Origin: SAR202 cluster bacterium
GTDB taxonomy: Bacteria; Chloroflexota; Dehalococcoidia; Lucifugimonadales; GCA-2719675
DNA length: 64,000 nt
NCBI GenBank assembly: GCA_009392295.1
Contig: VFGW01000006.1
Location: 1-64,000 of the forward strand
Reading direction: 5' to 3'
A program made the translations under genes and the position numbers. Shown in pieces: positions 10,272 through 63,117 of the stretch. Numbering within the stretch: position 1 is the stretch's first letter; each line of letters starts with the position of its first letter. The notes below the pieces were generated by a model. It was not told where the DNA came from and did no database searches. It saw only the letters and a list, made by a program, of their open reading frames with translations.

Positions 10272-11027
10272 CTACCCTAAATTTAATTTGTTTAGAAAAT
10301 CCTTTGACTTATCTACTATCCAAGAAGGTGACCACATATGAACTACGAAATTAACACCTAAATCTAAATAATTCTTCACATTTTCAAGAGTTACTAAAGT
10401 ACCAGGGTTCCTTCCTGAAGCTCTGATTTTTTTTAAAGTATCCGAAACTACAGCTTGAACTTCTGAATGATTCGGTTCACCCAAATATCCCATAGTTTGT
10501 GCTAAATCACCGGGTGCTACAAAAAAAACATCTATCTCATCAACCTTTAAAATTTCATCAAGATTTTCTATAGCAATAATATCTTCGATCAAAACAATTA
10601 CCATAGTTTCATTATTAGCATTATCAAAATAGTTTTTTACACCTAAGCCTTGCCTACTTGTATATATTCCCCTATTTCCTTTTGGATGAAATTTTGCTGC
10701 CTGTACAACTTGATTAGCTTGTTCAAACGTATTGACATGAGGTACTACAACACCTTGAGCACCCAAATCTAGAACGCGATAAATAAGTCCTGGTTCATTA
10801 TGATTTATTCTGATAATAGAATTTTTATTCCATAGATCACAAGCTCTAGTGATATCAGGAATATCTCCAAAATCAATTAATCCATGCTCAGCTTCCATCC
10901 AAATGCAATCAAAATCAGTAGTGCCAAAGAGTTCAGCAAGATCTGAATTCATATAGCCCCCTACACAAGAAACAACTCCCCCATTTTCCAATTTTCTTTT
11001 TGCATGATTTACTCTTAAATTAATCAC
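10272..11027 (-). CDS. HpcH/HpaI family aldolase
   Basis: Metal-dependent class II pyruvate aldolase that splits 2-keto-3-deoxy-acid or 4-hydroxy-2-keto-acid substrates. Visible motifs are DCIWMEAEHG near 40-49 (the family has a conserved Glu-His here), GVVVPHVNTFEQA, the RG-x-x-T-x-R-x-G loop, and VAPGDLAQTMG, which binds metal and substrate. Length (251 aa) is typical. Starts with GTG, with AAGGAG six bases upstream; the first eight bases overlap the end of the MFS gene, so the two are translationally coupled. The MFS-aldolase pair suggests uptake or efflux of the same acid. In an oxidative sugar pathway this enzyme would act last, giving pyruvate plus an aldehyde. Confidence 0.85.
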   Translation of the reverse strand: MINLRVNHAKRKLENGGVVSCVGGYMNSDLAELFGTTDFDCIWMEAEHGLIDFGDIPDITRACDLWNKNSIIRINHNEPGLIYRVLDLGAQGVVVPHVNTFEQANQVVQAAKFHPKGNRGIYTSRQGLGVKNYFDNANNETMVIVLIEDIIAIENLDEILKVDEIDVFFVAPGDLAQTMGYLGEPNHSEVQAVVSDTLKKIRASGRNPGTLVTLENVKNYLDLGVNFVVHMWSPSWIVDKSKDFLNKLNLG

Positions 11028-36158: not shown

Positions 36159-36310
36159 TTACTATCCTTCCTAAACAAAATTGATTCAACTGATTAAATA
36201 AGATTAAAATTATGATACATTCAAGAATTTTTATATTCAACTACTTGATGAATTTATATAAGTTGTGTATTAAATCAAAAAAAATCACAAAAATTCTTTA
36301 AGGAATAATC

Positions 36311-37531
36311 ATCAACACAAAAAATCATTCTCCAAAACCTTTATCGTATATAGGTATAAGACTATTAACATTGTGCCAATTACTAGGTGGAACCAGTATT
36401 TTTATTCAAAATGTTGTAGTTGGATGGTTTACTTACGATCTAACCGGTTCAAGAATTTTAACTAGTATGTCCTGGGGAATAGACTCTTTATCAAATGTAA
36501 TTTCTGGACCTATAGGAGGATTGGCTGCCGATAAATGGGAAAGAAAAAAAATTCTGGCATACACACAATTTTTAAAAACAGCCATTGTTGTAATATTTTC
36601 ATTTCTAATTATTTATAATCAAGTCAATGCAATATGGATTTTGTTTTTCGTATTACTTTTAGGGTTTTGGAGCACAGTTTCAGCACCTTCTGAACACTCT
36701 ATAGTCCCAACTGTTCTGCCAGTGAATTCAAATATTTTAGTTAGTTCCTTCGCTACAATTATGGCTGCACAACATCTGTGTGGAACTATCATGCCTCCTA
36801 TAGCCGGAAAAATGATTTCCTGGTTTGGCCCCGGAGAAACATTAGTGTCAACATCTCTCCTGTTATTTTTGGGTGGATTGACATATCTTAAAATCAATCC
36901 TATTAATTCTCATAAAGAAAACAAACAAATAAAAAAAATTAACTATAAAGAATTGTTAATTTTTCTAAAAAAATCTCCACTAATACAAGCAATGGTAATA
37001 GCTAGAACTTGGATATATTTGTTTGTAACCCCTGCAGTACACGGTTTACTTCCTGTATTTGCAGCAGAGGAACTAAATACAAATTCTTTTGGATTAGGGT
37101 TACTTTTTGCATCTCTTGGAACAGGTGGAGTTATTGGAAATTTAGGGTTGTCATTATGGAATAAACGTTTCCAAAGAAATATATTATTTATTTCTTATTG
37201 GTCAATCGCTTGTATAGCAATGTTTATTTTCGCAAATTCTAAATCGTTATTAGTATCTTTACCTACAGCTTTTTTAGTTAATTTTGGAATCATAAGTACT
37301 CTAACAATAATTAGATCTAGTTTAGCTTCGGAAGTTCCTGACATATTGAGAGGAAGAGTTTCATCACTAAATTCAATTGCTATGATAGTAGTCCCTATTG
37401 GCAGCTTAATTGCAGGAAGTATAGCAGAAAAATACAATGCCCCAACAGCAACTATGTTATGTTGTTTATTTTTCTTCTCTTCATTAGTAATTACCTTTTT
37501 GATCTATCCTCAGATACGAAATGTCAAATGA
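36311..37531 (+). CDS. MFS transporter, apparent ATC start
   Basis: A 12-TM major facilitator, of the family with GWFTYDLT in TM1-2 and GPIGGLAADKWERKK in the first cytoplasmic loop. The track starts at TTG 36371, which has no ribosome site and deletes about 20 residues including the first part of TM1. The frame is open back to a TAA at 36299 and contains no ATG, GTG or TTG; an AAGGA at 36300-36304 lies six bases before ATC 36311. From there the protein is 406 residues, close to the 407 and 403 of its paralogues at 37528 and 61906. The stop overlaps the ATG of the next gene (ATGA). Substrate unknown. Confidence 0.75.
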   Translation: MNTKNHSPKPLSYIGIRLLTLCQLLGGTSIFIQNVVVGWFTYDLTGSRILTSMSWGIDSLSNVISGPIGGLAADKWERKKILAYTQFLKTAIVVIFSFLIIYNQVNAIWILFFVLLLGFWSTVSAPSEHSIVPTVLPVNSNILVSSFATIMAAQHLCGTIMPPIAGKMISWFGPGETLVSTSLLLFLGGLTYLKINPINSHKENKQIKKINYKELLIFLKKSPLIQAMVIARTWIYLFVTPAVHGLLPVFAAEELNTNSFGLGLLFASLGTGGVIGNLGLSLWNKRFQRNILFISYWSIACIAMFIFANSKSLLVSLPTAFLVNFGIISTLTIIRSSLASEVPDILRGRVSSLNSIAMIVVPIGSLIAGSIAEKYNAPTATMLCCLFFFSSLVITFLIYPQIRNVK

Positions 37532-38751
37532 AAAAAATTGCTAATTTACAATATTTAAAATACAAAGGAGTCAGGCAACTATTTATTACTTATTTGTTAG
37601 GTGGGTATAATCAATCAATACAACATGTAGTAATTGGGTGGTTTACTTACAATCTTACCAACTCACCTATCTTAACAAGTTTGACTCATGGCGTAGCAAC
37701 AATTCCAAATATTATTACTGGACCAATAGGTGGTTATTTAGCTGACAAGTTTGACAGAAAAAATATTTTAATATTTTCAAATATTGGCGCACTGATAATT
37801 ACTGCTATTTTCTCATATCTAATCTCAAAAAGTTTCTTCCAGGTATCATGGATTTTCATATTCCTATTTTTAAAAGGAGTTATATATAATTTATCTGGAT
37901 CAAGTGGCCGTGCAATTTTGGCAAATGTAATTCCGAAAAACCAAAAGATACTGACTGAAGCAACGGCTATAACAATTGCTTCTTACTTCATAGCAACAAC
38001 ATTAATACCACCATTTGCAGGAAAATTATTTCAATTAACAGGTCCTTCATTCACTCTAGGAACAATTAGTATCTCACTTTTTTTTGCAATATTAATCTTC
38101 TCTCAAGTAAAAATGATCAGCCCTGAAGAAAAAGCAAAATCGCCAGCTAATTTTAAAGAAATATTTTATTTCATCACAGAAAAACCTATACTTCAATTAA
38201 TGTTATTTTCTAAATCGACAATTTGGATGATTATCACCCCATTTACACATGGAATACTCCCTATTTTTGCAAAAGATATACTCAATACTGATTCAGTAGG
38301 TCTTGGAATACTTTTTACATCACTAGGTTTAGGAGGTTTAACAGGAAGCCTAATAGTTATTTTTCTCAGTAAATTTCACACCACTAAAGCAATAATAATA
38401 ATTTTTCTGTTTCTTTCATTTATCGCAATGCTATTATTATCTATCTCAAATTCAATGTTCTCAACAATCACATGTCTCTTTTTAATCAACGTTACGGTAA
38501 TGGGCAACCTGACCTATATTCAATCGAATATTCTATTTCAAAGTAAAGATGAATTCAGAGGAAGAATATCTTCAATAGACTCATTAAATATGGCTATGGC
38601 TCCTATAGGGAATTTTTCTGTAGGTTTCCTCATAAAATTTTATAATATTTCTAGGGCAATACAAATTGGAAGTTTCACTGGAATAATAATAACAATTTTA
38701 AGTATATTTCTTTTCCCCAATTTAATGGAGATTAAAGATAAAAAACAATAG
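37528..38751 (+). CDS. MFS transporter, paralogue in tandem
   Basis: Close paralogue of the preceding gene: VVIGWFTYNLTNSPILTSL, GPIGGYLADKFDRKN, HGILPIFAKDILNTDSVGLG correspond line by line to it. It begins with ATG 37528, overlapping the upstream TGA by four bases, the arrangement of tight translational coupling. The track ORF (37459) adds 23 spurious residues within the upstream gene. Twelve TM segments, 407 aa. Coupled paralogous MFS genes may assemble as a heteromer or serve alternative substrates. Probably an efflux or uptake carrier of the adjacent catabolic genes. Confidence 0.85.
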   Translation: MKKIANLQYLKYKGVRQLFITYLLGGYNQSIQHVVIGWFTYNLTNSPILTSLTHGVATIPNIITGPIGGYLADKFDRKNILIFSNIGALIITAIFSYLISKSFFQVSWIFIFLFLKGVIYNLSGSSGRAILANVIPKNQKILTEATAITIASYFIATTLIPPFAGKLFQLTGPSFTLGTISISLFFAILIFSQVKMISPEEKAKSPANFKEIFYFITEKPILQLMLFSKSTIWMIITPFTHGILPIFAKDILNTDSVGLGILFTSLGLGGLTGSLIVIFLSKFHTTKAIIIIFLFLSFIAMLLLSISNSMFSTITCLFLINVTVMGNLTYIQSNILFQSKDEFRGRISSIDSLNMAMAPIGNFSVGFLIKFYNISRAIQIGSFTGIIITILSIFLFPNLMEIKDKKQ

Positions 38752-61905: not shown

Positions 61906-63117
61906 TTATTGAAGCCTACGTAGTGTTGGAAAAGAAATAAATACTATTACTACAAATATTAATAAAATAACACAACAAACTTGAGTTGCTATTGTCACAC
62001 TATAATTTTCAGCCAAAATTCCTGCTAACAAAGTTCCTAAAATACTTAATACATTTGTAAAATTAAATATCCCACCAAAACGTCCCCTAAGTTTATCAGG
62101 AACCTCTGAACCTAAAAGAGATCTACCAATTGTAAGTATACTTATTAAGCCGAAATTAAGAAAAAACACACATATCAAGCCAATAGAAAGTGATTGCGCC
62201 AAAGAAAAGGAATACATAGAAAAAAATACAAACATTAAATAGAAAAGTAACAAAGTCCCTTTTTTTACATAATTAACTAAAATTGAAAGGCTAAAATCAG
62301 AAAAAAACCCACCCACTCCTAAAATTGCGAAAAGTAGTCCATATCCATCTGGCCCTGTTGAAAAGATATCAGCAGTATAAATTGGTAATAATCCATGCAC
62401 AGCTGGTACTACTAAAACATTCACACTGGTTCTAAGTAATAAAGCACCTTGAAGTAATCGATTAGTTTTTAAAAAATTAATTAATTCTATAAAATTTTCT
62501 TTAAAATTATTCTTAATCAATTTTTCTTGAGGACGTATAGTTTGAATCCTAGAATAAGCCAGCACAGAAATTAAAATCATTATCAACTGTCCTATTAATG
62601 TGAAGCCAGGCCCAATTCTTTTTAATAATAATCCAGCAAAATAAGGAATTGAAAAATGTCCTACAAAATATGCAGAACCAGTAATTGCATACGCTGCAAA
62701 TATAAGATTTCTTCTTGTTGGTACTAGCAATGGGATCAATGAAAAATCTGATGGACCTCCTAATGATTGAATAAATCCTACTGATAACAAAAAAATAAAT
62801 AAATAATATGTATTAAAATTCCCAGAAATCACCAAATACGCAAACAAAAATATGAATATACTTTTAAGTAAAAAAACATTCACAATTACTTTTTGTCTAT
62901 TCCATTTATCGGCAGCAAAACCACCAATAGGTGCAGATATCAGCCCAGATAACGCTCCAAATCCCCATGAAAGACTTGTTAAAAATGGTGACTGAGTGTA
63001 TTCATAAGTTAACCAACCTATCACAACAAATTGAAAAAAAGATGATGCTGAAGAGAAAAATCTTCCAAACCAAAGTAATCTAACATTCGAATAATAAAGA
63101 GGAGCTGGAAATATCAT
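61906..63117 (-). CDS. MFS transporter, third paralogue
   Basis: Homologous to the tandem genes at 36311 and 37528: VVIGWLTYEYTQSPFLTSLSWG, APIGGFAADKWNRQK and HGLLPIYTADIFSTGPDGYGLLFA. Twelve TM segments and 403 aa, starting with ATG 63117. Its N-terminus (MIFPAPLYYSNVRLLWFGRFF) starts at about the same place as the reconstructed start of the 36311 gene, which supports that choice. First of a leftward unit that continues with a two-cysteine lipoprotein. Substrate unknown. Confidence 0.85.
   Translation of the reverse strand: MIFPAPLYYSNVRLLWFGRFFSSASSFFQFVVIGWLTYEYTQSPFLTSLSWGFGALSGLISAPIGGFAADKWNRQKVIVNVFLLKSIFIFLFAYLVISGNFNTYYLFIFLLSVGFIQSLGGPSDFSLIPLLVPTRRNLIFAAYAITGSAYFVGHFSIPYFAGLLLKRIGPGFTLIGQLIMILISVLAYSRIQTIRPQEKLIKNNFKENFIELINFLKTNRLLQGALLLRTSVNVLVVPAVHGLLPIYTADIFSTGPDGYGLLFAILGVGGFFSDFSLSILVNYVKKGTLLLFYLMFVFFSMYSFSLAQSLSIGLICVFFLNFGLISILTIGRSLLGSEVPDKLRGRFGGIFNFTNVLSILGTLLAGILAENYSVTIATQVCCVILLIFVVIVFISFPTLRRLQ

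Follow-up and report, generated by a model that had tools for sequence, protein, structure and literature searches.

A probable ATC start codon in a transporter gene of a SAR202 cluster bacterium, and the apparent recurrence of AUU and AUC starts in its lineage

Where does translation begin in a bacterial gene whose family-like N-terminus is encoded in a stretch holding no ATG, GTG or TTG? The question is raised by an MFS transporter gene of a SAR202 cluster bacterium, located in the 64,000 nucleotides of contig VFGW01000006.1 analysed here (the window; Table 1). The original prediction had noted that the frame lacks these starts between a TAA at 36299 and a TTG at 36371, and the window sequence agrees: the TAA (36299-36301) is followed by GGA, ATA and two ATC codons, at 36308 and 36311, the next canonical start is TTG 36371, and the frame, open directly 3' of the TAA, spans 36302-37528. 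An AAGGA occupies 36300-36304 and leaves a gap of 6 nt to ATC 36311, from which 406 codons run to AAG 37528; both this spacing and the product length, 406 aa against 407 and 403 aa in two paralogues, were obtained as originally given. Bacterial genes accepted as starting at AUU or AUC are few, namely infC and pcnB in E. coli and a handful elsewhere. Here, I argue from sequence comparison that translation of the MFS gene probably starts at ATC 36311.

Table 1. Features of the MFS locus in the window, and genes from the start survey (codons given as window genome/G001, the latter being the related genome described in the text)
Feature	Position	Strand	Remarks
MFS transporter gene	36311-37531	+	406 codons plus stop; PF05977/PF07690; dN 0.011, dS 0.159 against G001
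Proposed start codon ATC (ATT in G001)	36311-36313	+	G001 alignment, Shine-Dalgarno spacing
In-frame TAA, missing from G001	36299-36301	+	
Shine-Dalgarno-like AAGGA (AAGAG in G001)	36300-36304	+	Spacing class common ahead of canonical starts
TTG, first in-frame canonical start	36371-36373	+	Use would delete conserved N-terminal residues
90-nt block shared without change by window and G001	36194-36283	.	Between divergent oxidoreductase and MFS genes
Diverged leader end	36284-36310	+	13 same, 5 different, 9 gapped against G001
Adjoining MFS paralogue	37528-38751	+	407 aa; ATG (ATG AAA AAA at 37528) overlaps stop of first gene
Second MFS paralogue	61906-63117	-	ATG start, 403 aa, N-terminus MIFPAPLYYSNVRLL
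infC	L042 (about 1727), L043 (about 1722)	-	ATT/ATC
Aldo/keto reductase	L070:5218-6066	-	ATT/ATT, behind AAGG(A)
GPH-type transporter	L098:11820-13064	-	ATC/ATC, behind AAGG(A)
HflX	L055:885-2012	-	ATT/ATT, behind AAGG(A)
TruA	L052:8554-9360	-	ATT/ATT at homologous Met
GHL10-like protein			ATC/ATT; weaker case
Xanthine-dehydrogenase-like gene	L170:337-2613	+	ATG/ATT
Unnamed gene	L140:16092-16688	+	TTG/ATT
pheA	L062:11425-12267	+	CTG/TTG

The MFS protein passes the Pfam gathering cut-offs of both PF07690 (79.8 against 33.4 bits) and PF05977 (92.1 against 27 bits). TIGR00900 and EntS-like MFS transporters are its best NCBIfam matches; at 139.7 bits against a curated cut-off of 319.6 for TIGR00900, an H+ antiporter subfamily, it is a relative of that subfamily and not a member, and a search by sequence for relatives of solved structure returned none. 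The two MFS paralogues in the window are 37% and 35% identical to the product of the ATC-start gene. The paralogue at 61906-63117 begins MIFPAPLYYSNVRLL, which is resembled by the NHSPKPLSYIGIRLL of the frame under study, indicating that coding extends upstream of TTG 36371; the motif PxPLxYxxxRLL, in codons 36332-36370, is common to the two, so that the family-like N-terminus announced by the original prediction is indeed encoded there.

The genome contigs and the genus were searched for close orthologues, and only one was found, in a Chloroflexi MAG of the same genus ('Chloroflexi bacterium SP301', contig PBID01000002.1; hereafter G001), while viral contigs held no orthologue. The G001 protein is 97% identical, and the gene is under purifying selection (dN/dS 0.07, window against G001). 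Conservation of the ATC in orthologues had been proposed as a check: the sole orthologue has ATT at the codon aligned to ATC 36311, likewise non-canonical, behind a purine-rich AAGAG at equal spacing, and the comparison does not bear out a canonical start downstream of TM1, which would have spoken against the original prediction. Between the window and G001, 37 positions of 36332-36370 are the same and 2 differ, both synonymously, and in 36311-36331 the figures are 17 and 4; I read the former segment as conserved protein and the latter as a loosely constrained tail. It is along these lines that translation from TTG 36371 appears very improbable, even though no earlier canonical start is available in the open frame: the protein would be deprived of the first half of TM1, the conserved PxPLxY..RLL residues and their synonymous-only changes lie upstream of the TTG, the Pfam MFS_3 match begins ahead of it (at residue 13 of the frame counted from GGA 36302), and no Shine-Dalgarno (SD) motif stands at the usual distance.

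A start-less stretch of 20 codons is by itself not rare, and what takes the missing start beyond chance is the combination of the conserved codons 36332-36370 with an SD core at the usual spacing. Such a core at such spacing precedes 49% of aligned canonical starts against 8.5% of control positions, the modal aligned SD spacing being 4-6.

An ordinary start might also be hidden by a sequencing or assembly error, since the window belongs to a fragmented genome (25 contigs) and A-runs occur in the region, and an indel of this sort had been named from the outset as a possible undoing of the prediction. Yet G001, an independent genome from the same genus, is likewise devoid of a canonical start here and has ATT at the aligned codon, which makes an error in a single assembly unlikely; besides, shifting the junction by 1 or 2 bases yields no start codon, given that indels of this size near 36299 open start-less frames bounded by stops at positions 36271 and 36249, and only the loss of the TAA by substitution would join the upstream starts. 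I regard such an error as a highly unlikely source of the missing start.

A more serious contender is an ancestral start lying upstream in frame, at ATG 36212, TTG 36245, ATG 36248 or TTG 36263, and still used in G001, in which case an indel in the window lineage would have made TAA 36299, and the gene would be either freshly interrupted or translated only by re-initiation at ATC 36311 after termination at the TAA. G001 is without the TAA, its frame runs open to upstream ATGs and gives an ORF of 436 aa from an upstream ATG, and the window frame is also open upstream as far as TAA 36299; the G001 SD is merely AAGAG, and the TAA of the window overlaps the SD, a layout permitting re-initiation. 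N-terminal tails are often longer in distant homologues, to which a start further upstream would also conform, but they are short in both window paralogues. The upstream codons, moreover, have no SD core ahead of them by eye, and starting there would leave the two divergent promoters just 53-89 nt. The leader itself falls into two parts. Block 36194-36283 is identical at 90 of 90 positions in the window and G001, despite a dS of 0.16-0.21 in the flanking genes; it is probably control DNA (promoters or operator), though in G001 it may encode an upstream extension of the N-terminus, its identity being compatible with coding as well as with control DNA, for 24 unchanged codons at the rate of codon change of the MFS gene have an estimated chance of about 6%, which is not very unlikely. 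Matches to the sigma-70 consensus in this block were no better than in shuffles. In the second part, 36284-36310, the difference between the genomes is best read, from the alignment, as two indels, of 10 nt and 1 nt; such frame-breaking indels, and a degree of change exceeding dS, argue against an upstream start, and I read this segment as the drifting end of a leader. On balance, an upstream start is unlikely, though it carries far more weight than either TTG 36371 or an error, and initiation at ATC 36311 remains the preferred reading.

As to the mechanism, AAGGA 36300-36304 would pair with the anti-SD of 16S rRNA, and the ordinary initiator tRNA(CAU) would decode AUC through a third-position mismatch within a weakly structured start region, which is indeed A-rich with little structure; no RNA family was found in the MFS leader. 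An alternative initiator tRNA with a GAU anticodon was considered and rejected, as the only initiator anticodon found is CAU. Initiation would be weak and, by analogy with infC, restrained by IF3, resulting in low transporter output. I infer, in other words, initiation at ATC, IF3 control and a low output of the MFS transporter; the start is presumably of the infC type, weak and IF3-sensitive, and on the same analogy one would expect weak translation of the gene and a response to the level of IF3.

E. coli starts infC with ATT and Streptomyces with ATC, and in both organisms IF3 represses non-canonical starts (PMC5472188). SD-directed initiation at AUU or AUC is the feature presumably shared with the MFS gene, which, unlike infC, has no known reason for autocontrol by IF3, so that its link to IF3 is one of analogy. 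Streptomyces sigR, which starts at GTC and is repressed by IF3 (PMC5472188), has a conserved non-canonical start outside infC, although the codon is different and its regulatory role has been demonstrated. Likewise, E. coli pcnB is a non-infC gene limited by its AUU start, as cited in PMC13009471; that start was demonstrated experimentally, whereas the one proposed here is inferred by comparison. In S. aureus, cvfC1 (AUU), ccpN (AUA) and infC have conserved AUU and AUA starts with strong SD motifs and reduced output, those of cvfC1 and ccpN having been located by ribosome profiling and examined in reporter assays (PMC13009471); in contrast, the SD of the MFS gene is merely AAGGA and its start is read from sequence.

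How isolated the ATC start might be was addressed by a survey covering some 1.43 Mb from the window genome and 1.18 Mb from G001, in which 733 pairs of orthologous ORFs were compared, 691 of them after filtering. The aligned canonical starts comprise 506 ATG, 163 TTG and 29 GTG. About ten of the 691 genes, picked by inspection, appear to start at ATT, ATC or CTG (Table 1). Most of these lack a canonical start and have ATT or ATC at a homologous position or one matched to an SD, and in three a canonical codon of one genome is aligned to ATT or CTG of the other. A case in point concerns infC, whose opening codons are ATT CCG AAA in the window genome against ATC CCG AAA in G001, both behind AGGAG at equal spacing and with no canonical start available. 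HflX has a TTG 16 codons downstream as a possible alternative start. In TruA, an upstream TTG is present in the window genome and not in G001; among 30 genomes read, 15 encode the homologous Met by ATG or GTG, the others differing in residue and having longer N-termini, and in G027 (L196), from another family of the order, in-frame stops just upstream are followed by ATT ACT AGA, from which TruA appears to start at ATT there. uvrC and RnhB are ambiguous. Some candidates were rejected: prfB (L109, around 10330-10440) carries its usual programmed frameshift, at CTT TGA C, which a mechanical survey can mistake for a missing start, and RseP, carB and some further genes were dropped because a nearby downstream ATG explains them.

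Over all genes, an automated test found ATT/ATC after SD motifs indistinguishable from background, and a second enrichment test was not significant (8/61, p 0.13); the claim for the lineage thus rests on genes chosen by eye from lists, a choice that invites selection bias. With this proviso, AUU and AUC starts appear, from the aligned sequences, to recur in the lineage; the ATC reading of the original prediction is supported, and the case seems less isolated than its remark on the rarity of AUC initiation in bacteria would suggest. I tentatively propose, with rather more doubt than confidence, that AUU, AUC and occasionally CUG are ordinary minor starts of about 1-2% of genes in this marine Chloroflexi lineage, that they interchange with AUG and UUG between species, that standard annotation misses or truncates such genes, and that IF3 acts jointly on their expression.

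If the comparison holds, a marine lineage of small genomes uses AUU or AUC in some ten of the 691 genes compared, and this apparent recurrence within one uncultured lineage is of more interest than a single ATC start. Were it true, gene finders limited to ATG, GTG and TTG would mis-start or lose genes, and the stringency of start-codon selection may differ between phyla. As a separate observation on the tRNA complement, a selenocysteine tRNA gene was predicted in both genomes (G000:C20:22087-22184, L118).
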